Of a stretch of 64,000 nucleotides of DNA, positions 6,301-62,954 are shown one piece after another. Source of the stretch: Glandiceps talaboti (Eukaryota; Hemichordata; Enteropneusta; Spengelidae); the NCBI RefSeq assembly GCF_964340395.1, contig NC_135553.1, positions 9,584,501 through 9,648,500 on the forward strand, written 5' to 3'. Made by a program: the position numbers and the translations under genes. Each line of letters begins with the position of its first letter. The stretch's first letter is position 1. The notes under the pieces were generated by a model that ran no database searches, had not been told where the DNA came from, and saw nothing but the letters and a program-made list of their open reading frames with translations.

Positions 6301-9300
6301 ATCAATCAATCAATCAATCAATCACTCTCCCACTCAAAGTTGATTATTATTATTATTATATATTTGATCTATTGTGTAATAAGTTCAAAAATGGATGTTT
6401 GTTGTTAGTGATGGCAGCAATACATATTAAAATATATACATGTTGAATGAACATGATGATAAATGTTGCAGTATTTCAGTTCCAGAGTTGTTCATGTGAT
6501 AACATCACTGGCGTTCCCACTGCAGAAACTAAATGTTGTGCCGCTATCTCACCTGACTTGATACAAGTAGTCAACTGAGACGAAGTACAACGACAGACCA
6601 AATAGTGTTGTATGTTGATTGGGGTGTACTGGTACAAGGAGAAAGAAGATTTTGGTTTTGGAGCATAACTGTACAATAAGTTACACTTCACTAGAGACGT
6701 AAAGTTGTGATGATGGTGAAAGATTAGAAGGGGCTGACTTGTAACTTTTATGCATGTAGCTAGTTCAATCTGTGTTGTTACGGTTTTAGCTCCACTGATT
6801 AAAGTTAGTGTGAGTGCAAAAACATGGAATTCAAAGATGTGGTTTTAAAAGACTCAATTATTATATATTTAGTAATAGGATAAGTTGAAACATGGCTGTT
6901 TACTGCCAGTGATGACAGTAAATTAATACATGTGGAAAGATAGGCTTTTGGAGCAAACATGTTGCTTTATGATAACGTTAACAGACATCACAAATTCAAT
7001 ACCCAATGTATAAATATCTCTTCACAGTGTGAAGAAATACAGTGTGAATTGGAGGTAAGAAACCAAACATCTGAACTACTGACAGGCCTGAGATTGGAGG
7101 AGATGCAGAATGCTGCACTGCCCTCTAGAGTAAGATATTTGCAAGAGAGACTTGTCAAGTTGAAAGATATGGCCAGGGATCTCGCCAAGAAAACTGCTAT
7201 CAGACCAGACCCTCCCAGAGTAAGTGAAAACTTTTACCATGTATTCTGATAATGTCTAATCTCAAAACCTTGTTAAGTAAAGATTATTTTCATGATAAAT
7301 GTTGCAGTATTTCAGTTCCAGAGTTGTTTATGTGATAACATCACTGGCGTTCCCACTGCAGAAACTAAATGTTGTGCGCGCTATCTCACCTGACTTGATA
7401 CAAGTAGTCAACTGAGACGAAGTACAACAACAGACCAAATCGTGTTTTACATTTTATGTCAAGATGGTTTTGATTTTGAAGCACATTCAACTTACAACAA
7501 GTTACACTTTTCTAGACTTATGATGCTTGAATGATTAGACGGGGCTGGTTTGTAACTTTTATTCTTAAATTCAATCCATGCCATTGTGATTGTAGCTCCA
7601 GTGATATTCACCGTGCATTTACGTGTGGTTGGAAGCCATTGAGGCTTTTAAAGACAGACCCCTTACTGTTTTGATGTGGTTATCAATGCCTTGAAGTGAT
7701 TAATTGATGTAGTAGCAATAGCCCTTTCTGGTAAATTGTTCTAAAGGTCTACGAAATGTTGACTGAAAAAATATTTATTTACGGTATATATGGTAACACT
7801 AGTACAAGAATGTGGTATTCAAACATGACGCTGTAAAGATTTAAAAGCCAAGGTCATGTATTTGTTTACTGATAAAAATACCGTGTAGGTACAACTTTGT
7901 CTTACAAACTCAGAAATCAGCCTGTGTTTCATCTGTAATTTATCATCTGGGACATAGTAACTGTGTGTAGTTTTGAACTTGAATTAAACTTCATCTGTCT
8001 ACATTTATGTTTCAGTTTGATGCGCTCCTCCAAGAAGTCCATCACTTTACCTCCAGTGTTGGATCACTCAGTACTGTACAGAACCTTCAAAGAAAGCTGG
8101 AAAAGTCATTCAAAAACCAGGCAAGAACAAGGGGGAAGCACTCCTATATCACAAACCTTATAAATGAAGAGAAGGCCTGGCAGAGTTCCGTTCATCAGTT
8201 CATCAAGAGAATAGAGGATGAGTACCCCCTGTACAGAGATCTGACTATTCCATTTCTGACAGGGGTGTTACAACTTTCTCATGGAATGAGAACAGTGGCA
8301 CATGCTGTGTATTGTAAAAACCAACAGGTCAAAGTTCATCACGCCATAGTTAAATCGGATCAGGTGAGAAATTGCATGGTTCAAATTTTCTCCTTTGGTT
8401 TCGTGAAAAAGTAGATGAAATGTCATTGAATGATAGGTTTGAAAATTTGACTATTTGACAGAAGGCTGTTAGATAAATATTTTTTTCATGATAAATGTTG
8501 CAGTATTACAGTTCCAGAGTTGTTTATGTGATAACATCACTGGCGTTCCCACTGCAGAAACTAAATGTTGTACCGCTATCTCACCTGACTTGATACAAGT
8601 AGTCAACTGAGACGAAGTACAACGACAGACAGACTCATAAGTATTTGATGAAAATACCAAATAGTTAGAAGATTTTGGTTTGAAACTAAACTTGACATTG
8701 AGTTATGCTGTTACAGTCATTATGGTCTGATATTTAGAGGAACTGACTCATAATAATTGTACTGTGCTTTGTTTTTGTAAGTTGTCACAAAAACCTGTGC
8801 ATTTGCAAAAGTATCATTACTTGGCAAGGTAACTATTCAAATCCTTACCATTGTCAGTTTAGTACACAAAGGTTGGCCATTTCCAGTATGACACTTAAGT
8901 CAGCCATTTTCATTTTCTGACTATAGGTTTCTACATAACTACATGCATTTGATTTGTATCTCTTCCTTAGATCAATTCTGTCCAACATCTACTGCAGACA
9001 CTGGTACGATTTCCAACAGTTACTGAGTCCACACCGACATCATTGAGTGTAGCTGAAGCTCTGTGTGATAAGAATACCTTACAGCTGATAGAGAACATTA
9101 CAAATTTGACCTTTGACACGAATGATGTTGATAAACCAGGAAGTAGTAATCACAAAGACAAGTAAGTTGTACAGTTATGTTAGCAATTTGTAATAAAATG
9201 ACCAATTATGGAATTGAAGAACATGATTAGTTGGCAATCACAAAAAATTTCAATTTAAAAAAAAATAAGATTGACAACTGTGTGTCGGAAATACTTCATT

Positions 9301-10225: not shown

Positions 10226-13200
10226 ACACACACACAGACAGACAGAAGTATAACATAACCTCCCCTTATGTAAAATGTGCCAAAATTTACAGAAAGTTTG
10301 ATTGTAAGGTTCAATCTGGATTTATTTTGAGTGAGAAAAACCGTTGTGTGGCATATAATGCAGCTATACAAAAAAAGCTGGTCATGAACAAAACAAGGAT
10401 CCTGACTTTTTAAAGAGAATTTTTTACATGATAAATGTTGCAGTATTACAGTTCCAGAGTTGTTTATGTGATAACATCACTGGCGTTCCCACTGCAGAAA
10501 CTAAATGTTGTACCGCTATCTCATCTGACTTGATACAAGTAGTCAACTGAGACGAAGTACAACGACAGACAGAATAATGTTTTCTCTAATCCTTATGGCT
10601 CCACTGATAAGGTTAGCACTAATGTGAGAGCCTGGGATTGAATGATGGGTCTTTAAATTTGTTGATCATAAAGAGACACATGAGGATAACAACTAATACA
10701 TTTCTATGTTTGTCTTGATCTGACAGACCCTTATTTTGAATGACGCCCTCTCTGGCCACATCAGAAAAAAAATGATGACACCACAAATGCATGGTTTGAT
10801 GAAACATATGATTTGTGGCTGAAATGCATTACCTTCAAGGAAACAAATCGTTCATCATTTCCACCTGACTTTCATTTCTGCATAATTTAGGTATCCAGAG
10901 ACTTAAAAATGCAACTGAATTAAAAGCCTCAATGAAATGTACACACTTACTATTTTATAACTGACCGACCAACCCATTATTATCAAGTGTGGCAATGAGA
11001 AACAAAGAAATAAATAAAGCCACCATAATAGCGGGATTGATATTCTAAGGAGAGAATTTTTCTTAGTATATGCATTAGTATTGATGGTTCTGGATGACGT
11101 TTAGATGAGTGTTTGGCCATACAGGGGTAGGTTTATTGCAGACATTGAAATTTAATTCCCTAACATGTAAACAGGGATAAAACTTATGGCAACTGGAGAG
11201 ACTTCAGTGTTCATTGATTCAGATATGCTGAGATTTTGAATACAAAGTATAATTTTCTTGTGTAGGATTTTGAAGATCTGACCGACCCACCTTCACTGGA
11301 ACGTAAAGAGTCAGATCCTGAGGATATAGATGGGACAAAATCTGACTCTGTCGTCAAGGCAGGCAAGTTGGATGTCACCGAGATGTCAGAGATGTGTAGA
11401 GTGCATCAGTTACTGTACTGTGGTTTAACAAGAACATCTTGGCTACAGCCTGGTCATGGTGTGGAGAGATACGTGGACTATAGCGAACCATTCTCTATAG
11501 CTTACCAGATGACTGCCAGACTTGTACAAAGTGCTAGATCCGTGACAGGTAAGAAATTAGTCTATTTGACGGACAATACTAGTAAGACAAGCTATGAAGG
11601 TTAGCATACTTTGCTAGGTTTCTGACATAGTTATGAAATGACTGCACTTTTACATCACTTAAAAATCTTAAGTACGTTCTTTAAACACCAAGTTCACCCC
11701 ATATAAACACCAAATTAGACCCATCACCCCCTTTACAAGTACACCTCATAACACCCAAGTGAAACCTGTTACACTCAAGTACAACCCATAACACCCAAGT
11801 ACAACCCATAACACCCAAGTATACCCAGTGACACCTGAGTGTACAACCCATAACACCCAAGTATACCCAGTAACACCTGAGTGTACAACCCATAACACCC
11901 AAGTATACCCAGTAACACCTGAGTGTACAACCCATAAAACCCAAGTAGTAAACCCTTTAACACCCAAGTTCAATTTTGCAGTATTACAGTTCCAGAGTTG
12001 TTTATGTGATAACATCACTGGCGTTCCCACTGCAGAAACTAAATGTTGTGCCGCTATCTCACCTGACTTGATACAAGTAGTCAACTGAGACGAAGTACAA
12101 CGACAGATGAAATACAAAATGTATGTGATTGCTCTAATTGCAGTCAGTCTGTTATTGTTTACAGCAATGTTAACAGTGCAAATACACAAATGACTAGAGT
12201 ATGGACATTGATGCGATACAACATCATCTACTCGTACATCTCATTGAGATGGCTAAATATAATCAGTTGTGATGCTGTCATAGTTCTGAAATCGGTTGGC
12301 TTTTTTTCATCAGCCAACATTATTTACAAACTGACTACAGATGAAAGTCACATGCTACCTCATGTAAGTTCTGATGTATACCATCAAGTCCAAAGATTCT
12401 TAAAATTGAGTTTACTTTTGATTTTTTTCAGATGCCAGTCTTGACAGTTCATTACTAGGATCTCATCTATTGATGTCGTATCTACTGCACAGTTCAGCTG
12501 CAAAGTCTGAAAACAAGGACCCAAAAGAAAACGTCTCTACAAGTATCTTGTTTAATAAACCATTTGATATCTATTATGATTCACATGTTGAAGAAGCAGT
12601 ACAGTGCAGACCAGTGTTGGAAAAATTGACAACAAGAATTGAAGAGTTGTTGTCTGAATGGCCTGAACATCCAACGCTAAAACAGGTACAGAATATATGA
12701 ATGAACAAAATCTTGTCATTATGTGCATCATATTAAAATCATGAAATCTAGACAAACCATCGTCTGGTGCGACCAAAATATTACCAATACTGCTACATTT
12801 ATCGTCTGGCTCAAAAAAATATTACCAAGAGAGATATTTGTTGAGCAAGACAATGATATGTTGGTTAGATTTTTATTGAGCAGACGACATTTTATGTTGG
12901 TTAGATTTTTGTTGAGCAGACAACATTTTGTGTCAGGTTTTGTGATTATAATTTTACATTTGTATCACACTAACGTTTCAATCTAGGGAAAATTTGTGAA
13001 GAACTTGATGACAAGTTGTACAAGTGTAGGTTTGGTCATTTTGTAGGACAGTCAACTTCTCAGATTTGGGTTGTATTGAGAAATGTGCACTGAAAGACAT
13101 TGTCCTTCTTTTACACATCGTGGGTTGAATTTCTATGAATTTCTCACATTTTGACAATAAAAATATCTTGATACCTGTATTTAAGAACATTCACAAGTAA

Positions 13201-15579
13201 GAGAAATAAGTTCAACATGTAGGTTTTCATGGGATGTTTTAGTTACTTTCTGTTACTTGAAAAGTTTATTACTTGTCAATTTAATGAAAATATTTGACGT
13301 CGTGAATCAAATGTTGATGAAAGTACATTTTCATTTTTAAAAAAAGTTTTAAAAACCCAAGTCATAATAATTACTTCCTTTTCTGTAGCTGGTTGAAATC
13401 ATTAGCAGAATCATGGCTTTCCCAATCACCAGTCCACTGATGAAATTTGTCACTGGGCTAGAGGTGCTCCTTGAAAAGGCACAGGTAAGTTTGTCTTGAA
13501 AAAATTTCTGATGGCATTATGCAGATGAAAACAATGAGTAGAATTTCTCCCAACACCAGCATGCATGCAACCCCTACTCAATCACCTACTCTTTCACATC
13601 AGATTTTTGAAATACTTTCATGACACACTCCAAAGAACACTGTCACATATACTGTGATAACAGTTTGTCAAATGTTTTATAAGAAAATTTGTACTAAACT
13701 TTGTCATTTTTATTGACGGCTATGTTAGTTCACAGCATTTTCTTCTAGCCAGTACAGTTTATGTTCTTCATGGCCCAGCACCAGCAACGGAAAATACGAG
13801 TGACCTAAGGGGTTTGTCACTGCTCGTCTAGTGACGCATAGTGACTAAGCCCCTTCAGGTCACTCATATTTTCCTTGGCTGAATGAAGAAAAATATTGAG
13901 GAATAACTTCTAATTGTTTTTCATGTCCATTTTGTAGGAATGGGAATCTAATGCATCCAGACAGGTATCAGTACAGACTCATCTAGACAGCATTACACAA
14001 ATGATTATACAGTGGAGGAAGATAGAACTCAGGTAAACTTAGTCTTTGTATGGAGTAGATTATTCAGAATTTCTTGAGGTGTAATATCCTAACCTAGCAA
14101 TGTGTTGATCTATCATATTGCTGGTTAGGTTATATACAATTTTTTAAGATAAACTCAGTACCGATCACAAAGCCTTTGGTGTTTTTGTAAGTATCACCAA
14201 ATAGATTCAATTGATACAGTATATATTTTGATGTCCTGGCTGCTTTTCCTTTGTTTGGTAATCTCTAAGATTCAAAATGGTACATTTTCAATTTTTCAGT
14301 TGCTGGTCATCTTGTCTCAACATGGTGGTGTACAAATATGTACTCAAAGCCTGCAAGAGATGGTATCATTTATACCAGCTAGTGGAATACTACTTGGCTC
14401 ATCCACAAGATAGCGATGAAGGATGTGATGTTGCCATGGGAGAGGAGTCAGTTGCCCTAGCAACCAGTGATGAGTTGCATGAGAAGGAGGCAAGCGGTAT
14501 CAATAAGTTTGTGAGGAACCTCCAGCAGTTCATGGAAGGAACTAGTCTGGGAGAGTTTTCCTGTAGACTTCAGATGATGATGGCTTTTCACTGCCAAGCT
14601 GTACAGACTGCAGAGACGCCTGAACAAGGTAAGTTATAATGGAACTGCATTTAATAAGAGACTGCATGAAAGTCACGTAAACAGATTCAGGATGCTTAAA
14701 ACCATGGAAACATGTTTTGCATTTGCAAGTAACGAGAGAAGTGAATTTGGTTCATTTCAGTTCTAACGAAATGCAAGTGATGTGCATCGTTTATAGTAGT
14801 GCATAATTTGAAATGTTCTGTGATCTTACTAATGAATTACGTGTGAACACTATACATGAGGCTGTTGCTCATATAAGTTCAACTTATTTGTTACTGTGAG
14901 ACATACATGTAAGTGTACGAAGCGTGTAGTCAAAAATTTCAGATACTAATTCCTACGTTTGTGTTTTGAAGAAATATGTAATTTGATACACAATACACGT
15001 GATTGTTTAGTGTAGTTCATGTGTTACCGTCATGGTAAATTATTTTTGAAATTTGACTTTTACAGGAAAGGTTGTGAACATACTGTGGAATGTGTACCAG
15101 TACTACAAGCAATTCTTACCAGCTGTAGAGGCTAAAATACAGGAATTAAGGAAACCTATTGAAAAAGAACTGAAGGTAAGAGATACCAATAGACTGGGGG
15201 GCGGGGGGGGGGGGGGGTGTATTTGTTCCAGAGGGAGAGAATGAGAGTGTATATGAGTGTCCATTTGTCTGTTCATGTGTTCGGATATAAATTTACAAGA
15301 TAACATTAAGTTAGGGCTAAAAAAATCTTGTCTTCATTTTTGCATGTAGTTTGTATTCCCACATCTATCAACAAATATTGTATGGCCTTGTCAAATGTAA
15401 AGTTTAAAGACAGCTATACATATTGCCATAACTGTGTTTTGATTGCTTATCCATCTGTCTGCAACCTTTCACAGGGTTTTGTGAAGATAGCAAGATGGAG
15501 TGATATGAACTTCTGGGCCATGAAGCAATATGTGGAGAAATCACACCGGACTCTTCATAAATACAGGAAGAAATTTGAG
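369..15579 (+). CDS. MDN1: MDN1 exons 1-18 of the window (linker region)
   Basis: Exons: 369-499, 1189-1352, 2127-2467, 3067-3313, 4016-4310, 4654-4925, 5645-6122, 7028-7219, 8016-8363, 8971-9161, 9663-9921, 11266-11548, 12432-12685, 13389-13484, 13938-14032, 14300-14628, 15066-15175, 15475-15579. They encode the long helical linker between the AAA ring and the acidic tail. Two stretches strongly recall vertebrate midasin. One is WRKIELSCWSSCL, split across the 14032/14300 junction. The other is GFVKIARWSDMNFWAMK, followed by VEKSHRTL, in the 15475 exon. Phase bookkeeping was checked exon by exon; for example, 1-nt and 2-nt overhangs at 2467/3067 and 9161/9663 restore sensible codons. The 8971-9161 and 13389-13484 exons are too short or too closed to show as long ORFs and were placed from splice sites and frame. 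Confidence 0.92.
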
Positions 15580-18500
15580 GTAAAACTAATCATTTTGTAA
15601 CATTTTCATAGCAATCATACAACCATAGATTCTACTTGTGTGTGTGATATAACTTCTTTGTGTCTTTAGATTTGTTGGTATTTTTAATAGTTCATGTGAA
15701 AGGAGGTAGATATAGTGTTCTACATACTGAAGCATAGATTATTCTCTTCCTTCCAAGCTGTATGACATACCTGCATGGTACACAGAGAGAGGGGATTAAT
15801 ATAACCATAACTTGCTATTGGCAGAACCCAAACTTGGTATTTACACATAGCATATAAATAATTCTTGATACTTGTAACAGAATTTTACCACTTATGCATG
15901 TCATAAAGTCATTGATCATTCCATTTCTCAGTGGACTCGATGACTGCCACTCTTTATGCTGCACATGCATTACTATAGGCCTGAGAGAATAAGTCATCCT
16001 TCTTGTTCTATTTTACTCTCTAGCATGAGGTAAAATGCTATTGCAGGTACTGAGAATAAGTCAACCTTCTTGTTCTATTTTACTCTCTAGCATGAGGTAA
16101 AATACTATTGCAGGTACTGAGAATAAGTCAACCTTCTTGTTCTATTTTGACTCTCTAGTGTGAGATAAAATGCTATGCAGGAACTTAGAATCCAATGACA
16201 CCATGTACATTTGTGCATACACAAAATGTATGTAGACTAACTTTGTTGAAGAAACCGCTGATAATTCCATTAGCTGTTCCAAAAATGCCAGAAGATGATA
16301 TTTTCAAAAGTGACTACGAATCATGAATGATATTACACATTAGTTTTCTTGTAATATTTGTGCATGAGCATCATAGCAATTGTATGATGTGTTGAATGAC
16401 AAAAAAATTGTTGTAATCTTCACAAAATACACGAGCTGTAAATTGCGTGCATATTTGATTTATTTATTTATTAAATATCTTAATAGTATTTTTGTGGTGC
16501 ACTAAAACTTCAATTTTAAATGTCAGTTTTTTGAAAATGATAGAAAAAACATGTTCTCTTGTAGGCAAATGACCAAGAAATGTATTCTCTTAAAAAAAGT
16601 GATCATACATGTACAAAACAAATAACTGCACTCTTACAAATCCTATTGGTTTTCAGTGTTTTGTGCATCAAAATGAATGCAAGACATGAATTTGAACAGA
16701 ACAAGATGTTGATATTGTTTATACTATGCAATAGATGTGGCACCAACAGAAATATTTTTCACAATATAAATCTGTACAAATCATATCCATGAAATTCCCA
16801 TGACAAGCAAATTTGGGAAATGATTGCAGACACAAAATAATGGGAGCATTTTAAAGGCTCATGATTCAATCCCAGGTTCTCATATGGGTGCTATCTTATC
16901 AGTGTAGCCATAAAGATTGAATGACTCATACTTTTGTCTTGGACTTTTCTATAGCTCTGTCAGATGACTGTTTTTCACACCAAATTTTAAACCTAATCCG
17001 TACTGGGCCTTTTTATGTCAATTTAGACATTAGATTAAATGCATAAGATGGAATCTTACTCAGTTTCAGTTTTTATACTGCCTTGTTTAGAATCATTGCA
17101 GTCAGACTCAGAGGTGATCAAATGATGTTGAAGTTGTTCTTCAATGGCAGCAAAGTTACTTGATAACACTTGTAAATCCCTCTGGTTGGAGAAGAGTCTT
17201 AATTGATGCACCCACTTCAGGGCGTCTTGGTACGAGTTGATACGTAGTTCATCTGTATCTCCATTGTTTGTCTGGATTATGCTGTTTTCTGGTGATGAGT
17301 CAAGATTCTGTGGGTTTACAGTCCATTCTACATTGCTATCTGGTGAATTAGGATTCTGTTGGCTCTCAGTTTCTGAGATGTCATTCGGTTCTGATTTCAC
17401 TACATACCAATTTGATGCAACATAGATTTCTTGTGAGTCAGTGTTAAGCTGGTGTTGTGATTTGATTTCTGTTTGTGGCGAGTCCTTGCTTTCAGTATGT
17501 ATCGCAAGTGTTGAGTTTGATTGCCTGATGGGCAGATGTTCCCTAGCTGCCATGCAGTGTGTTGATGGTATGGCAGTCTGTGTCACAGTTGGTGAGTTTG
17601 ATTCACAGGTCTCGCATTCCCTACAGTTGGTTGATTGTGTTTCAGTATGTATTACAAGTGTTGAATCTGTTTGACTTGTCGGGCATTCCCTGCAGTGTGT
17701 TGGTGGTGATATAGCTGTAGTCCTACTGTAGTTCCAGGGCTTATCAAAGACGGTCATCAGTTGTGATGTTGGCATTGTTTCTGTGTCCCTATCCTCAAGA
17801 CAGTTTGTGTGAATAGTGACGTGAGAGTTCAATGACTCCTGGTTACTTTGACCACCCTGTAGTTGTTGAGGGAGCTGTTCACATATACTGTTTTTGTCAC
17901 CATGGCTTTCAAAATCATGACGCTCAGCAAAAACTGGTACTTCTTGAGTATTCACCATAGTTTTGTCAAAAATAGGGTTAGGTTCATTGTTCATAGCCCT
18001 GAACAAGTTCTTGTGCCGTTTCTTAAAACTCTCTAGCCATCCATTTGATCCTTTGAACTGTGGTTTGTTCAACTGCCTTGCAATGCTGCGAGCCTGTTCC
18101 TGCAGCATTGGTCCCGAGATATGAACACTTTGTGAGCACATCTGCAGCAACCATTGAAGTGTCAAATTGTTGACATCGTCGTTGACACGACAACTCGATC
18201 TTATTCTTTTCCTGTTGTTGTCAAAGCTGGTTCCAAATGATTCTAGTATCTCCTGCTTCCTCTTCAAAATGGTATTGACTTGACCTTTACAGATGTTGAA
18301 TAGCCTGGCCAGGTGTCGTTGACTTTTACCTTGACTTTGATGGATCAGTTTGACTTTTTCACCCAGAGTGAGTTCATTACGTTTGTGTCTGATTGACTCC
18401 ATTATTGCAGATGGATGGTTGTAGAGGGTTGTGCACCCAGAAATGATTGTTGCTGTGTAACACAAGCACTCAGCCTGGAATACGTTTGTTATCAGATATT

Positions 18501-20891
18501 AACAATCGTTGTGTACAGGCAGAGGTTATAATGTGTACTACAGGTGTACTGTACTCTATAAGAGTTCAAGGTCATTAATTTGGTCCAGTATTTGTAGTTG
18601 TGTTCAAAATTTAAAACCCGAGAGGTAGAGTTCAGTGTACATGTATGCATCTGATCCAAGTATAATCCACAGCTACAATTCAATGCAACACCTTTCAGAG
18701 AAAGTGTGATACTTGATTACACATGCGTAGTATTACAATGTATAGTAGTCTATTCAATCCTCAATGTTGATAATGCCTTGCTGATCATTCCACTGAATTT
18801 ACAATTACTCCCAGTTATAAGACATTTACACTTCTGTAGCAAGTCATTTTAGGATATGGAAAAGACTATCACCTCCTGTGTGCACACTTCAATGTTTTGC
18901 TGAATGCTGTATTAAATCCCATCATAATGTGGCTCTCTGCAGTTCAGCGCATCCGTGTGTGTGCAGGGAAGCCGGCCATGTTAGTAGTGACCTCATTATC
19001 ATAACACATTAACAGGCACCTGATTTTATCACCTGACTTGGGTTAAAAGGTCAAGGTTTTGACTTCATGAATATTGATGAAAACAGCCTGAATAGAAAAT
19101 GTCCTGTGAAAACCTGTGGTTGTTCACACTACTGCAGTACTTTTTGGAGAAAGAAATTTTGAGAGCAGACATGTTTTTTTGGGGGAAGAAATTTCAGGAG
19201 CAAATGTATTCTTTTGGTGCAGAATAAGAAAATGGAGCTATTTTTTCAGATGCATAGAAATAGCAAATGAAAAAAAAACCATGAATTTACTTCTATATGT
19301 TCAGGAATATGGACTGGTTGTATTTTAATTATTCTAAGTATTCATATTCTTAGCTCCTATTAATTAGTCTTTTGTGTCCATTTGACCTTTGACCTCAGTA
19401 TAAGTAGTTTAATAGAAACAGTTTACAGACTGATTGTGATAGACTTGTGGAACTGTATAAGGTACCCCACAAATCAAGTTTTGCATTTATGTATTTTGCT
19501 ATATCTGTTTATTTGGTGTCATTGAATTATCTTTATAAATTTTTGTCTTGCAATTTTGTAAAATTTGTGGAATTGTATAGTTACAGTTGTAATGGTAACA
19601 ATACAGGACTTCCTAAAATCAATAGTTGCACAAATTTGAACGCATGAATATTCACAATAAGATAAAAATGTAACGAAAGTGAACAAAATTTGAACAGTAT
19701 CTTGACTTCTTGTACATCCATGCATACTTCATATACGTACATAAACTGTGCCAGAAAGTGTACATTGAACAGTCCTTGCCATAGTCTGCATGTTTCTTAT
19801 AAATGTTGTGTGCAAGACTTCAAAATTGCAAATTTTCTGTAAAACTCATCCTTCTGTTTGCTTCTTTTGTAGAGTGCATTATTGGAGCTTGCCAGGAATG
19901 TGTTCACGGACAGCAATATTGGCAACAAGGAGAACCAGAACCAGCAGACTCTAACGATATCACAGGTTGACATGTTTGTGTCTCCACACAGTATGAAAGT
20001 AAGATTTTAACCCTTGCTCTGCATTACTCAATATTTGTATGAGAGGAAATCTGATGTTAAAGATAGCATTTTAGTTCAAGAGGTATAGCTGCAATTGCAC
20101 TTGAACTTGAATGGAAAAAAACGTGAAACCTGTCTGAAAAGAACACTATCTTCCATCTACCACTACCCGTATTAGAAATACCTGATATATTTAAGGTGAC
20201 TTTAGAAAGAATTTTAACATGAGCCTCTGCTGACTATTCTGGCAAACCTGTCCACAGAGTTTCCACAGTAATAGGTTTCACTGTATCTACACTGATGTCT
20301 ATGACAATAGTAAACTTCTGTCATAGATATATTGTATGGTTTTGAGTGTTCCGATATTGACATAATGTATGCTTCATAGTTAGCACAATAACACTTTGAT
20401 ACACTTTGTAACTGCCATGTTTTTATCATTTACCCAGGATTACTTTGATGACCTAGACGAATCTTCACCACTAGAGGGCATACTTCCAAGACTGCCATTC
20501 CTGTACTCCAAAATGACAAAGTTATGTCATAAGATGTTCAAAACATCATACTACCCAGAACTAATCACTTCAATTGACGACTTTACCGGCGATGTTATTG
20601 ATACAGTTCATCAACTCCAAGCACTGGACGTAACAAAGGTATTGTGCATTGTTCATGCATTTTATCATAAAAAGTATTAAAAAGGTCCATGATTCAATCC
20701 TAGGTTCTCACGGTTAGTGCTATGTTATCAGTGGTGCCACTCTTTTGTTCCTGATCCACTTTTTTTATCGTCCTGCCAGACAATTGTTTTGTTTGCCCAA
20801 ATTGAAGTCTAATGCTACATGGGCCTTTAAGAACACCTACAAATAATGGCTCAAAGTGAGAGACATGGGTGGTCTTTCAATATTTCAATAT

Positions 20892-32127: not shown

Positions 32128-35100
32128 CTCTCTCGCTCTCTGTCTCTGTCTCTGTGTCTCACAATTTTTAAGTTCTGCTTGCAGAATCATAGCTAATAAG
32201 TGTGGGTACTGATTTTCCCTGCAATCTCTGTGTTACATTTGTACACAGGAGCCTGAACAGACCAATTCATTGACAGCAGCTCAATTTAAAAATGACAAGG
32301 AGTCTGACGATACAGGGGACGGTGAAGGAGATGGAAAGCAGAGTAATGAGGAAGAGGATAAAAAGACGGCAGCTGATACAGTGGGACATAAAAGTAGAGA
32401 GTCAACCATTCATACGGCTAGAGACGTCATGATGGAAATAGAGAACCAAGCTAGTGATGTAGATGTAGAGAAGTTGAGAACTGAGCTGGAGCTACAATTG
32501 ACAACATGGACTCATAGTATAGGGTCTGCTGAGGAGGTGAGTGAAATGACAACTGGTTACTGGGTAAATGTAGACACAATCGTTATTACCAGTAATTGAT
32601 ATTAACTTGGTCGATGTAGCTGTATTTATGAGTTCAGAAATTGTCCCTGTTATCCATTAATGATTATAGAAGAGTAACCACCCATTGTGACAAAAGGCAA
32701 TGTTGAAAGAGAGGGAAAGACACTTTTTAAATACCAATATTTTTTGACATATATAGTCATTGGCGTTTTTTTTTATTAGGACAAGATGGCCCAGGAAGCC
32801 TGGTTGAGGTATGAGTCATTGACATCAAGTTTATCCCAAGAGTTATGTGAACAACTTAGACTTGTATTGGAACCATCTCAAGCAACGAAACTCAGGTAAA
32901 TTAGGGTCTATTGGCATGTCAGTTGAGAGGGTGTGAGTTGGACAGAGAGGGTGGGGGGATGGACAGGGAGAGAGAGAATCACACACACACATATACATAC
33001 ATACGTACGTACGTACATACATACATACATACATACATACATACATACATACATACATACATACATACATACGTACGTACGTACATACATACGTACGTAC
33101 ACACACAGCAAAAGAGATGGAGACAGAGATAGTACATTGTAGAAAAGGGGAGGGAGGAAGAGAGAGGGAATGGAGAGACAAAGCAAGTAGTTTTGAAGGC
33201 ATTAGGTTAGGTGTTAATTCGTGCTGCAGTAGAGTTATAATCCTTTCACATTCAAAGATATATATTTTATTTTAAATCTGTTAAAAGTCCACTTTCTTTT
33301 ATGTAGTTTAACCCACAGATTCTTTTGGATTTTAGAACATTCCCAGAGTGTCTTGTACAAGTCTCTTGATGTATCTTCACTGTGACACAGACTACATCCT
33401 TACTGTTTTATCCATTGTCATTACAGGGGTGACTATCGTACTGGTAAAAGACTAAACATGAGAAAAGTTATCCCATACATTGCCAGTCAGTTCAGGAAAG
33501 ATAAAATATGGCTGAGGAGAACTAAACCGAGTAAGAGAAATTACCAAATCATGTTGGCAGTAGATGACTCATCAAGTATGGCTGACAACCGCTCTAAACA
33601 GGTTAGTTATAAAGTTTCTACATTTAATCGTTTTGTTGTTTTGTAATAATCTCTTGTAAGATAGATTGCTCACAACTTCACACTAGAAGAGTTTCCAGTG
33701 TAATAACATTAGAACATTAGAACTGTAGTGTGATCTTTGCTAATTTATGAAAATATTTAATCATTGCAGCTGGCCTTTGAATCACTAGCTGTCATCAGTA
33801 ATGCTCTGACGTGGCTGGAAGCTGGGGAGTTGGCAGTTTGTAGGTAGGTAACAACCTCAGGGGGGGGGGGGAGGAAGAAGGGGTTCTCCTTGAGTAATAT
33901 CTCAAGTAGATAGTGACAAATTCTCATATGGAGCCCACATGTGCTGTGTTTTGCCGGGACAGGATGACTCTGGGAAAGCTTGGACAGTTCCATAGTGACC
34001 TAATAGTGAGCATGTAATATAGTCCTGTTATATAGTCTCAAGGATGAATGGAAATCTGTAGAACTATGTGATGTGTGTCTCTACACCAAAAATAGCAGGG
34101 AGTAATGCCCAACAAAAGAATTTCAGTGAAATTTTTTTTTCAAAGGATGGGTGTGAACCATATTTATACAACTGCATTTTCATCTTTGGATTTGAATATC
34201 AAAACAATATGCAAATGAGATTTAGATAATGTCCCTAGAATTAGTTCTGATAATCAACAATTGTTCATTTACTTGCTTGTGTTGTGTCTAAAAAATTTGT
34301 AACGCCATCAAATATTTGGGCACACACATTTAGAACAGTGTCCCTTTAATGCAGATGATACAAACAAGGGTATGCTAGGGAGTCTCTTTCTACCTCTAAA
34401 CCCAACCCCATGCTAGGGAGTCTCTTTCTACCTCTAACCCCAACCCCAAGCCCCAAACTATATCCCCCAACCACTTAAATACAAATGTGTAGGTATTGTA
34501 CTGTCAATTCACTTTTTACATTGTTGCCACATTTTTTTAAAAGCTTTGGAGAGACTGTCCAGTTGCTACATCCATTCCATGAACAGTTTACGAGTCAATC
34601 TGGTGCCCGAATCCTACAGCAGTTCACATTTGAACAGAAGAAGACCAAAATAGCCCAGGTAAAAATAATCATAAAATTTCATACCCGTAACATTTGTTGT
34701 GATTAACTTTTGTCATCCAAGTGAATTGAATTTGGCATTGGCATAAATTTTGATGATTTGTGAGGTACATTCTATTTAGTCAGACTCATAACAAGTATGG
34801 ATAGATGGAAGAGTTGCTCATAAGTTGCTAAGTGCAAAACAATCATTTTGCTTACATATTTTAGGCCAAGGTATGTCATTTGCATAATGAATAAAACAAT
34901 GGTGGGTATACATACGACATATGGCTGAGGAAGCAAGTCTGAAGTCGTCTATTCCAAAAATCTCACAAAATACCATTGCTATACAATATACATATTGTTT
35001 TGAGACACTTCATGTTGTTTCTATATGAGTGTGTTGACCAAGTGATTATTTACAGCGTTATTGCAAACACTGATGTTTTATTATATATTTTTTTTAATTA

Positions 35101-38006: not shown

Positions 38007-39129
38007 CTACATTTGCTTGTATAGGTATCCTGTAAAGGTGGTGTATTCATTCACATTGCTGTGGACAGCATAGTTGCCTTGTAGCTTAACCCAAATCTCA
38101 TCACCCTCCTGTGCATCAACAATGACACTATTAGATCCAGCACCATATGATCTATCTGCTGTATGAGCTACATACACGCATGGTAATTTTTCATCATTCT
38201 TCATCATGCAGGCAAACAGGTTTGATGCAGTATCCCTTAGTAATGACATACTCAACATATACACACCACTAACAGGACATGTGAATTTACCGGTTGATTG
38301 GTCATAGCCACCTCCAAGGTTACTGTACACTTTGCTAAACATGATCACCCGGGCACTGCTCCCATGTGGCATCGCAGTTGTCAATGCTACTGAAAATGCC
38401 ACTTTAACTTCCTGACCTTGGACTGAATCGCCCTTGTTCCCCTTTTGTCCAGGGTTGCCTTTTTCTCCCATCATTCCATCATCTCCTCTAGGGCCTGATT
38501 TTCCTGGTTTTCCTTTCTCACCAGGGAATCCAGAATCTCCTTTTAAACCAGTATCACCTTTGTCACCATTCATGCCAGGTTGCCCAGCAACTCCTGGAAT
38601 ACCATTGGCACCATGAATTCCTTTAAAAAACGAGAGTTGATCGATCAATTGATTGATTGATTGATTGATAGTTAATCAATAGGATCCTTATTCTGTAATT
38701 TTTGTCATTGTTAGGTGATTGATGTTGATAGTTTAATTCGTGATTGATCATTGATTCATCGATTCAATCAGCTCATTCAATAGTATTTACCACCTGTATT
38801 TGGTTGAGGGATGAGTCTTGAGTTATTGCTGTCAATCGATTGAGATTTAAATGAACGATTGACTCACCATTATACTTGAAGTGACATTAGTTCATGTGAG
38901 ATTGTTGTGTGCGCATGTGTGTGTTGTGTTGTGTTGTGTTGTGTGTAACTGTATTATGACATCTATTACCTGGGTTTCCAGGAATGCCAGGTATCCCATG
39001 GCAACAGTTTTCACTTTGTCCGTCCTCAGTGCGTTGACCTGAGGACACCTGAAGTTGTAGCAAAATCAGCGCCAGGTATAACAAACTGACAAGATGATAG
39101 ACAGATCTGCAAGGATTGGCACAACCCAT
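38007..39129 (-). CDS. Secreted collagen-C1q domain protein, two coding exons
   Basis: Exons on the - strand are 39129-38970 and 38620-38007 (257 residues). The phase-1 junction completes a Gly codon in the collagen repeat. Residues about 10-31 are hydrophobic (YHLVSLLYLALILLQLQV), giving a signal peptide ahead of SSGQ. A CC pair (ENCCHG) precedes about 28 Gly-X-Y triplets and could cross-link chains. The C-terminal 130 residues are a C1q head with VYSNLGGGYDQSTGKFTCPVSGVYMLS and a closing FTGYLYKQM (quoted in part only: YSNLGGGYD, GKFTCPVSGVY). It is expected to form trimers and act as an extracellular lectin-like or immune recognition protein, as in C1q/TNF-related families. A TAG acceptor at 39145-39146, 15 bp upstream of the ATG, suggests an upstream 5' UTR exon. 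Reverse-strand AATAAA signals are at 37530 and 37552. No specific ortholog can be named. Confidence 0.93.
38895..38945. repeat. GTGTT-type simple repeat
   Basis: A GTGTT run in the single intron of the C1q gene. A (GATT)n run lies at 38648-38670 close to the acceptor of its second exon. Confidence 0.85.
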
Positions 39130-42013: not shown

Positions 42014-42791
<778 letters not shown>

Positions 42792-43166
42792 ATGTCCGGA
42801 CGTGGTAAAGGAGGCAAAGGCAAGCGTGGTAAGGCGAAGAGTCGTTCAGCTCGTGCCGGCCTGCAGTTCCCTGTAGGCCGTGTCCATCGTTTCCTGCGTA
42901 AAGGCAATTATGCTAACCGAGTCGGCGCTGGTGCTCCAGTATATCTCGCTGCTGTTATGGAATATCTGGCTGCCGAAATCCTAGAGCTGGCCGGCAACGC
43001 CGCTCGTGACAACAAGAGAACCAGGATCATCCCCCGTCACTTGCAGTTGGCAGTAAGAAACGACGAAGAGCTGAACAAACTTCTGGGTGGTGTAACTATT
43101 GCCCAGGGTGGTGTATTGCCAAACATCCAGGCAGTACTCTTGCCAAAGAAAAGCAACAAGAAGTAA
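42792..43166 (+). CDS. H2A: Histone H2A
   Basis: This is a 124-residue intronless replication-type H2A. The tail [19 protein letters not shown] leads into [20 protein letters not shown]. The acidic-patch region reads [19 protein letters not shown], followed by [19 protein letters not shown] and [16 protein letters not shown]. There is no SQE(Y/F) tail, so it is not H2A.X, and the sequence is not H2A.Z-like. Two less common features are KRTRIIPRH, where most animals have KKTR or KKSR, and the AVMEYL spelling. It is divergent with H2B and followed by its own stem-loop. Confidence 0.98.
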
Positions 43167-59202: not shown

Positions 59203-60591
59203 ATGGAAGTCATGTTATTAGAATACAAGTCATCTTGCCATGACAGTCAAGATCTACAACAAATGCACACAAGGGAATGTTTTCAACAGCACCGAAACAG
59301 CCAAATTTTAAATGGAAGCGAGTTTATCTGTGGTTGCCAATGTTCCTTGGAAGACAACAGTGATAGTGAGAGTGACAACACTAATATTCTTCCAGCAGTG
59401 CAAAAGCTATGCTACAGCACTGGATCACAAATCAGCTCAGGGTATGGGACGCCAGATAACGATTCTGATGACTGTAGTGCTGTGTTTGACAACGATATTG
59501 ATGAAGACAGCACTTCCGACACCCAAGATGAAGAAATCTCCAAGAAGCTAACTTACCTTTCTTTAGAGAGTTCCAGTGAAAGTTACCAAGAGAAAAGCAT
59601 GGGTGACGAAACCAATTATCTAAGCATCATTGATGATACGAGTGTAATGAGTTCTAGTGAAATTTACCAGGAAACAAGTGCAATAGATGAAACTAAATAT
59701 CATAGCATTGCTGATGAAATAAGTGCTGTTGGCTGTAGTGCATTTCTTGAGTCTTCCAATAGAAGTGAAGAGTCTCAAAATTATACCGACTTAACTCCGG
59801 AGGATGAAAACACATCAAGCCAACACGTAGAACCCATCGATGACATTGACAATTCCTGGGTTAATATAGACCTTCCCATAGAGATTACGCCAGATCTTTC
59901 AACTCAGAATGAAAACTTAGACAATTCGATAGAATCACAACAAATTGGTACTCCAGAAAGAGAAAGTCACAATGTAGCAAGTTTTGATTTGAGATCACCA
60001 AAGTTGGTGATTAGTGGTGGTCTTACTACTCAAACTAAACACAATATACAATTCCTACCTCAGAGAAGTAGCACACCGAGGAAAACAGATTATACATGCT
60101 CTAAAAACAATGGAATCATCGAATTTCCTTCCTCCTTGTTGGCTGGTTCCCCTGTCGTTACAAATGGTACATTCCAGGAACTTACCACAACTGCCATAAG
60201 TTCACAAGCTAGGAATGATGTTAACAGAATAGACAAAGATATGGAGACTTATATAGACTTTCACAAAGTTGGCAGACCAAAAGGAAACCAACAGTCAGAG
60301 TTTGGGTCATACAAGTCTAGATTGTTACATGGCCGTGATATTTCTATGAATAATGATGGACTGTTAAAGAGAGAAGATCCTCCATTTTCCTCCTTTGAAG
60401 ATGCTGTTGATGCGACAGTCAGTGAGTTAATCAGAGAGAATAGAGACAAACCAGAGATTCTAAACCTACTGGAAGATGAACATTTCATAGATGGACTTAA
60501 AACCAAGTGTATGATATCAAAAGCTTGCTACAAGACCTGGTGCCAGGAACGACTAAAACTGCACTCATCATGCAATATATACCCTTCAGAG
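59203..60591 (+). CDS. First coding exon of an unrecognised acidic Ser-rich protein
   Basis: This exon is 463 codons from the ATG at 59203 to a phase-0 donor (GAG|GTTAGT) at 60592. I do not recognise the family. Residues about 45-260 are rich in Ser, Asp, Glu and Thr, with runs such as SSGYGTPDNDSDDCS and two copies of SSSE(S/I)YQE. A basic/polar stretch follows. The last 65 residues look folded and helical: SSFEDAVDATVSELIREN, then LNLLEDEHFIDGLKTKCM and ACYKTWCQERLKLH. There is no signal peptide or membrane segment. An acceptor-like site (ttcacggcag) at about 59139 suggests an upstream noncoding exon. The long open frame and clean donor argue for a real gene. Later exons were not found with confidence. 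Confidence 0.75.
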
Positions 60592-62954
60592 GTTAGTATT
60601 ACATTCTTTATTTTACTGAAAACTTTAAAATATTGTTATGCCATCATTCACATAAAAGAAACAGTTCCTCAGAGTCACTCCACTATCTCCTGAGCTGATC
60701 AGTAAATAGTAGAAACTTTAAAATTAAAATCAACTATAAATGAAATAAAAAAATACATATTTTATCTATAAATACTTTATAAATACCAGATTATATTTAA
60801 ATTGAACTTCTCTTTTTTAAACTTTGTCTCTCAAAATAACGACATTTCAAAGATTGAAACTTGAGGCTTTCGCACATCACAAAGTAGATGCTAAGTGAAA
60901 ATTGAGGACCTTGTGATAAAAATCTTAATGGTGAGTGTGTTATCACGACCATTGCAAGGCTTCCTTTACTGGCCATTTGTACACTAAATGTGGTAACACG
61001 CTCATTTTGTGGAAATCTTCAGAAAAATGGAAGAAACTATTAAAAAGTTTGACTATACACGTAGATGTTGGTATGAAGTAGACCATGTTGAAGTAGACCA
61101 TGGAATTGTTGATCTTCAAGTGATCACAACATGTCTGAATTTACCACTTAATCGTCTGAACAAAATAGAAGCAAGACTTCACTTGTTTCCATTGACAAAA
61201 AATAACAGTCACCATTACGACTATTGATTTTATAGTAGCTTGGTTTATTTAATGATTTTCTTTGCTATATTGACTCATGAGGCTTTTACTTATAAATTGA
61301 CAATGAGACCTTGTTCAAAATATCTGGTTTAACTGTTATTTCAGGGACTTACTACTATAAATATTTTCATAAAGTTTTTATCTACTTTTAACATTGACAT
61401 AATGTATGCAACTTTATTAATTATTGCACTACTTGTCTTTTCTGCAAAATTTGGATGCAAAAAAATCCCTCAATTTCTTTTCTGAGGCTTCAACTTCAAT
61501 TTGGTCAAAAATACACGGGTCTTGTCTATACCCATGAAATTTCCTGATAAATATTCTGAAAACTAGAACCAAACTACTAAAGTATGCATATGAAACTTTG
61601 GCTTCATTGAATTTCCCAACCTGAGAGGAAGTAGAGTTCAACACTGCTTCCTTATGTACAGTCTGATAAGAGAAAGCTTTTGGTTGGTAATGGCTTCCGT
61701 ACAATTATGGAAATATCATGTACTGGAATAATGAAAACATTCTTGGCATTCATTTTTTGCACTATGGCTCATCTTGTGAAGATTCACAACTTTCATGAAT
61801 GCCCTCATCAGTCCCATTTAGTCATTATCTGGTATTCGGAAACTAACACAACCAAATTGAGATATATTCCAAATTCCATGCTGGTCTATCCAGACATCTG
61901 GCCATGCTTTGACTTTAAATATATATATATATTTTTAGTATTAGTATTAGACCATACACTGTTAGATCATAGACCCTACACGAAAGGGTCTATGGTTAGA
62001 TGAAACAATTAAGTCTTTTATAAGTTTCATCTTGCTTCTGGAGGACAGATAATACTCTCAATGCCATTTCAAATTTAATGCTGTTAACCTTTTCGAATAC
62101 AATATCTCAGGACCATTTTTTTCGGATTTTGACAAGTTTATGTTTTTACAATTTTTTCACTAGTTCCAAAGTTCAATTAATTTCAAGCACCAAGGTCAAG
62201 TTCATGTACACACGTCTGTATGACTCATAGATAAAAACCAGACATTTTGTATACTTCCGTAATAACAATATCATTTTACAAATGTATATATTCAAACATC
62301 AATTTCTAATTCTAATGATTCATGCATACATACTTATATAAATTATATCACTACATTTGACCGTAATCATATTTTGACCGTAATCATATATTTTCGTATT
62401 TTTCATATAAATTTCAAAATGTCGATGAGATAAGGCTATGAATATTATATAGTTACTGAAATTATTCAAGAAGAAAAAAAAATGGTGTCTGTTAAAATTA
62501 TCTTAAATTAGTTATTTATACTGCAATGTGTTCAGCAATACAGATACATTTATATTCAATTCCAAAGTTAAGAGTTAAAGTTAAATAAGAGATAAACTTG
62601 ATGTATGAGTCTGACCTTGGTTGAGGATACAAAGTTCATCAGTTGACCTTTGAACCCCCTCAATCTGGACAATAGTCATAATATAAATATTTTCATTATC
62701 TTTGCATTAAAAATTGTTTATGTTTTAAAATCACTTTAATTTATATTTTGTATTTAACATTCCGTGAAATAAAGTAACTTATAGACATGAAGATAATAAA
62801 CCATTATCTGTTTAGAACTAAAAGAATAATGATTAAATCTCAAACATACGCCATAATTTTCCTTTCAAATTTTGTGAATTTAATCACTTATCAATCATGA
62901 AAATATGTACTTCATATCTTCAAATATTACTACCTATTTTGAAGTCCCTACCCA
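60592..62954. other. Intron or intergenic region
   Basis: Probably the intron of the 59203 gene. It has a 10-bp-armed hairpin at 61969-61994 (CATAGACCCT and AGGGTCTATG). No exon could be supported; see the rejected frame at 60997-61227. Confidence 0.45.

Follow-up and report, generated by a model that had tools for sequence, protein, structure and literature searches.

The window, by which we mean the whole stretch of 64,000 nucleotides that was analysed, contains MDN1 exons on the plus strand, without the 5' part of the gene. The exon carrying the MIDAS motif (33386-33646, plus strand) gave a midasin match with an E-value of 8.6e-26, one further exon gave no match among solved structures, and the exons that were given to Pfam returned none. 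One of the MDN1 introns has splice-like borders (gtaaaa at 15580, tttgtag ahead of 19873) and is, judged by eye, the largest among the MDN1 introns recognisable inside the window, as stated in a preliminary description of this DNA. Within this intron lies an open frame of 448 codons, which was described there as intact and as nested antisense in MDN1. Both statements hold: the frame is on the minus strand, the MDN1 exons are on the plus strand, and no lesion interrupts the 448 codons, whereas shuffles of the same composition contained a mean of 26.8 stops and never fewer than 12 (n=300). The frame begins with an ATG in the context caataATGg, an in-frame stop is located 99 nt upstream of it, and there is no second in-frame ATG between the two. 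The features of the locus are collected in Table 1.

Table 1. Features of the 448-codon gene and of the MDN1 intron around it (window coordinates; residues are those of the 448-codon protein)
Feature	Position	Strand	Basis or remark
448-codon open frame, transposase-derived DNA-binding protein	17056..18402	-	frame, Pfam, genome searches
CENP-B_N helix-turn-helix, residues 5-56	18235..18390	-	Pfam PF04218, E 5.5e-9
HTH_Tnp_Tc5 / second CENP-B helix-turn-helix, residues 75-134	18001..18180	-	Pfam PF03221, E 4.4e-15
Ser/Thr/Gln/Asn-rich linker in the place of the DDE nuclease, residues 145-380	17263..17970	-	41.5% S+T+Q+N
Three degenerate repeats in the linker, mostly 69 nt (23 residues) apart	17490..17707	-	repeat families D2 and D3
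Residues 385-424, possibly left from the helical C-terminal segment of the transposase	17131..17250	-	profile of four resident tails
VKSE, SUMO-consensus-like, residue 335	17389..17400	-	sequence motif
IKTE, SUMO-consensus-like, residue 443	17065..17076	-	sequence motif
MDN1 intron enclosing the 448-codon gene, 4293 bp	15580..19872	+	gt...ag next to coding frames taken as the borders
MDN1 exon preceding the intron	15475..15579	+	weak midasin match, E 0.25
Likely MDN1 exon following the intron	19873..19998	+	frame read by eye, no database match behind the assignment

Several other features of the window were noted in passing. A 67-bp minisatellite with three copies (15985-16191) is located in the same intron as the 448-codon gene. 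Elsewhere in the MDN1 region one translated stretch, CRCTSSQLTTCIKSGEIA..., recurs by eye on the minus strand at 6476-6844, 8469-8702 and 11746-12240, and thus a dispersed repeat seems to have been inserted several times. A divergent histone pair with intact H2B-like and H2A-like frames was seen by eye at 42014-42382 (minus strand) and 42792-43166 (plus strand), and a 188-residue frame with collagen and C1q-domain sequences at 38007-38573 (minus strand). An intact frame of 496 residues at 59203-60693 (plus strand), rich in serine and acidic residues by eye, had no Pfam match at E-values up to 0.01.

The N-terminal part of the 448-codon protein contains the two CENP-B-type helix-turn-helix modules that had been proposed, CENP-B_N and HTH_Tnp_Tc5. 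Both Pfam matches are over their curated cut-offs, and two more matches fall under theirs. The best solved structure is the DNA-binding domain of human CENP-B (1hlv), which matches residues 7-130 with an E-value of 1.2e-12. Beyond this part the solved CENP-B chains gave no further match, and Pfam returned nothing over cut-off beyond residues 5-134, so that the C-terminal dimerisation domain of CENP-B was not detected. The proposed loss of the nuclease is likewise confirmed: Pfam finds no DDE_1 domain in the protein, and a search of the 64-kb window with seven resident transposase fragments revealed no DDE-like segment at a credible E-value, the best match outside the binding domain having an E-value of 0.08 and a position (57.6 kb) remote from the gene.

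The expected position of the nuclease is occupied by a linker whose composition agrees with the Ser/Thr/Gln-rich sequence described earlier. The three degenerate repeats reported within it are also present, although Tandem Repeats Finder at score 30 does not report them. The codon score of the linker is 0.065, and none of 2000 samples of DNA presumed to be non-coding exceeded -0.079; the samples came from a hand-chosen pool that was partly also used in training the model. Another frame of the linker scored higher still (0.088); thus, the test shows coding-like composition and not the frame. The coding training set comprised 21 stretches and 2057 codons with five stop codons within, showing that a few of the stretches overrun exon ends.

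Two claims about the C-terminal part could be upheld only in part. A short TIGD-like helix had been suggested to remain there, and the comparison of residues 385-424 with a profile built on the tails of four resident transposases, from which a fifth, shorter tail (L061) was excluded beforehand, is suggestive, since only three of 2000 shuffles (1947 of them scored) reached a higher score; however, six pairwise tests were not significant (P 0.06 to 0.67). The two SUMO-consensus motifs are indeed present, but their number is near chance, with two or more per sequence in 5% of 5000 shuffles. A PCNA-box-like motif, Q..[LIM]..[FY][FYL], was found at the C-terminus of all three transposases tested (L029, L002 and L007) and is absent from the C-terminus of the 448-codon protein. 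The tails of L061 and L064, frames that may be disrupted, show no such box either.

The lack of terminal repeats next to the gene, also claimed previously, stands for what was searched. The region 15000-20500 contains 19 inverted pairs, all weak, and none of those that span the gene exceeds 26 nt at 73% or 15 nt at 93% identity. The terminal inverted repeat (TIR) of one resident family, L014-L020, was used for the TIR searches, and short or distant TIRs or those of other families are outside their reach. Its exact 23-base sequence occurs 15 times in the genome, never on the contig of the gene, and no copy lies beside the gene. With two mismatches allowed, the 13-base TIR end was found six times in the 64-kb window where 2.84 matches were expected, a number reached in five of 100 shuffles. 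We take this slight excess as chance; the matches closest to the gene are at 20239 and 20271.

For copies and relatives we searched the 590-Mb assembly (47 contigs) of which the window is a part. The search scores only the best candidates, and the genome match counts are therefore lower bounds. At the DNA level the gene itself was the only match among those listed, and together with the weak inverted pairs around it this agrees with the absence of many near-identical copies with TIRs. The protein search (E-values up to 1) returned at least 35 matches including the gene itself; the non-self matches listed, at least 34, all lie inside residues 3-160, with 36% identity for the best-scoring one and up to 45% for one short match. 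Residues 145-448 found only themselves among the matches listed at E-values up to 10.

Profile searches of the genome gave 27 hits for CENP-B_N and 50 for DDE_1. A DDE_1 hit starts within 5 kb of nine of the 27, and the other 18 comprise the 448-codon gene, the loci L006, L008, L011 and L021, as well as 13 short copies, the frames of which span 82-86 residues. The first 194 residues of L006 are 98% identical to the L007 transposase, after which it is truncated or interrupted; L008 (region G000:C2:582980) is internally deleted, joining residues 1-82 to residues 496-548 of an L007-type transposase; L011 and L021 are diverged copies whose similarity extends past the DNA-binding domain. An alignment of seven of the short copies (L014-L020) shows a single young non-autonomous pogo family of about 1.26 kb with 92-99% identity, which retains a truncated CENP-B_N frame; the other six were placed there by frame length and profile span alone. 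TIRs starting with CAGTCAAACCTGT and a flanking TA were read in five inspected copies of this family. The 448-codon gene is thus the only one of the 27 hits that has both helix-turn-helix modules, is uninterrupted and is not a recognisable transposase copy.

The binding domain of the 448-codon protein is only 23-38% identical to those of its relatives and nevertheless keeps all 16 family-conserved columns, one of which is the initiator methionine. A column was regarded as conserved if it is identical in at least eight of nine relatives, which include two close pairs. In a similar leave-one-out count the nine relatives kept 13-16 of 16-20 columns, columns gapped in the tested sequence being omitted. 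A random substitution in the frame creates a stop with a chance of 4.7%, and a neutral frame would survive 5% divergence with P 0.04 and 10% divergence with P 0.002, counting substitutions only and not indels. If a transposon had arrived here recently, siblings within such a divergence should exist, and the matches listed include none. Like the retained columns, this is an indirect sign of constraint.

Three resident pogo transposases, L009, L002 and L007, have DNA-binding domains that are 38%, 23% and 27% identical to that of the 448-codon protein; they (L009/L029, L002 and L007) carry the DDE_1 domain that is missing here. The similarity to mammalian CENP-B comprises CENP-B_N and the second helix-turn-helix, with 32% identity over 124 residues. 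In contrast to the 448-codon protein, which has no DDE region and another tail, CENP-B still has a DDE region, the triad of which is no longer recognisable, and acquired a dimerisation domain at its C-terminus (PMC7386202). In a tree of 10 DNA-binding domain sequences the 448-codon protein is placed beside L004 and human CENP-B with a support of 0.66; it offers no DDE domain for a placement. The preliminary description assigned the gene a Tigger/CENP-B origin; the modules are of the pogo type found in CENP-B, whereas the label Tigger is not established, because the placement beside CENP-B and L004 is weak, CENPB is assigned to pogoR in PMC7386202 and the way in which Tigger is classified is, according to PMC7325037, considerably confused. 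In the former account CENPB, TIGD3, TIGD4 and TIGD6 are derived from pogoR, and CENPBD1, JRK, JRKL, TIGD2, TIGD5 and TIGD7 from Tigger.

Domestication of pogo transposases is already well known. The vertebrate host genes TIGD2-7, JRK, JRKL, CENPBD1, POGK and POGZ are pogo-derived, and most of them contain the same two DNA-binding modules (PMC7386202); the 12 vertebrate genes treated there are described as having kept the DDE domain, unlike the 448-codon gene. CENPB-type transcription factors derived from transposons were recruited independently and species-specifically in several invertebrates (PMC10027918), and these share the recruited CENP-B-type DNA-binding domain with our gene. The architecture of the 448-codon gene was not met in the passages compared from that paper. 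Searches of open-licence papers turned up no account of the 448-codon gene, nor of any animal gene that derives from pogo and lacks DDE. What is unusual here is the complete loss of the DDE nuclease together with a long new tail rich in Ser, Thr, Gln and Asn.

Exaptation explains these data best, although it is not proven. The 448-codon gene is probably a host gene that originated from a transposase of the pogo superfamily (Tigger- or pogoR-like) and would most likely encode a sequence-specific, non-catalytic DNA-binding factor. The ancestral transposase would have kept its bipartite CENP-B-type DNA-binding domain and lost the DDE nuclease, recognisable TIRs and the PCNA-box-like end. With all three missing, the protein is hardly capable of its own transposition. 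In pogo transposases the bipartite domain serves to bind the terminal repeats, and CENP-B binds a box of about 17 bp. The two helix-turn-helix modules of the 448-codon protein would most likely bind a specific DNA motif as well, and the bound protein would then act as a transcription or chromatin factor without catalysis. Because of its composition the long tail is probably disordered, and it might provide a surface for interaction or modification. We infer that the gene is expressed and under selection, that its product binds DNA and that the tail has this role.

The main alternative is that the gene is a solitary pogo element with an internal deletion that was stranded recently, has no host function and still has an open frame by chance. 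The genome offers precedents for this: the resident deletion in L008 joins head to tail and is a model for the loss of the nuclease in one step, and the related non-autonomous family has copies that are up to 98.7% identical, indicating recent pogo activity in the genome. Old ends may lie among the weak inverted pairs and the loose TIR-end matches, and a very recent stranding might leave a frame open by chance. However, neither a close copy nor a source element with the same linker is among the matches listed; none of the 15 exact TIR matches is on the contig of the gene, the conserved positions are all kept, and 236 residues of linker unrelated to DDE remain in frame. We consider a stranded element rather unlikely.

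Further alternatives have still lower probabilities. The protein could be specialised in suppressing or reading the pogo elements of this genome: as a transposase reduced to its DNA-binding domain, it would still recognise the TIRs of related, recently active families and recruit silencing factors through its new tail; this is doubtful, and if true it would represent a transposon-derived transposon repressor. A formerly domesticated gene that is only starting to decay would be an early pseudogene, which is improbable for a frame of 448 codons without lesion. Least probable is an antisense regulator of MDN1 acting via transcriptional interference, as the preliminary description had considered possible. 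The antisense position inside the intron would suit such a function, but nested antisense genes are common and nothing in the sequence points to an effect on MDN1; that suggestion is unsupported.

If the 448-codon gene is a host gene, it would add an independent case of pogo/CENP-B recruitment, in which the nuclease is gone altogether and a long low-complexity tail is present instead. The function of the DNA-binding half of a transposase on its own could then be studied in a clean example. Should it not be conserved in related species, it would be of little general interest.

Some observations concern other parts of the genome. A very long open frame with a CENP-B-like domain (L045, region G000:C20:15568646; 2090 residues as listed, partly N) is possibly a second host gene with such a domain. 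Contigs C1 to C23 are apparently chromosome-sized, which together with the mitochondrial code usage given below tentatively hints at a hemichordate. Contig C40 of G000 contains the mitochondrial COX1 three times at a spacing of 15,435 bases (one of them L085, C40:12741-14081) so that the mitochondrial genome seems to have been assembled in tandem there. In the COX1 of this contig, which has a GC content of 53%, TGA is present at 13 tryptophan positions and AAA in none of the 16 AAN codons.
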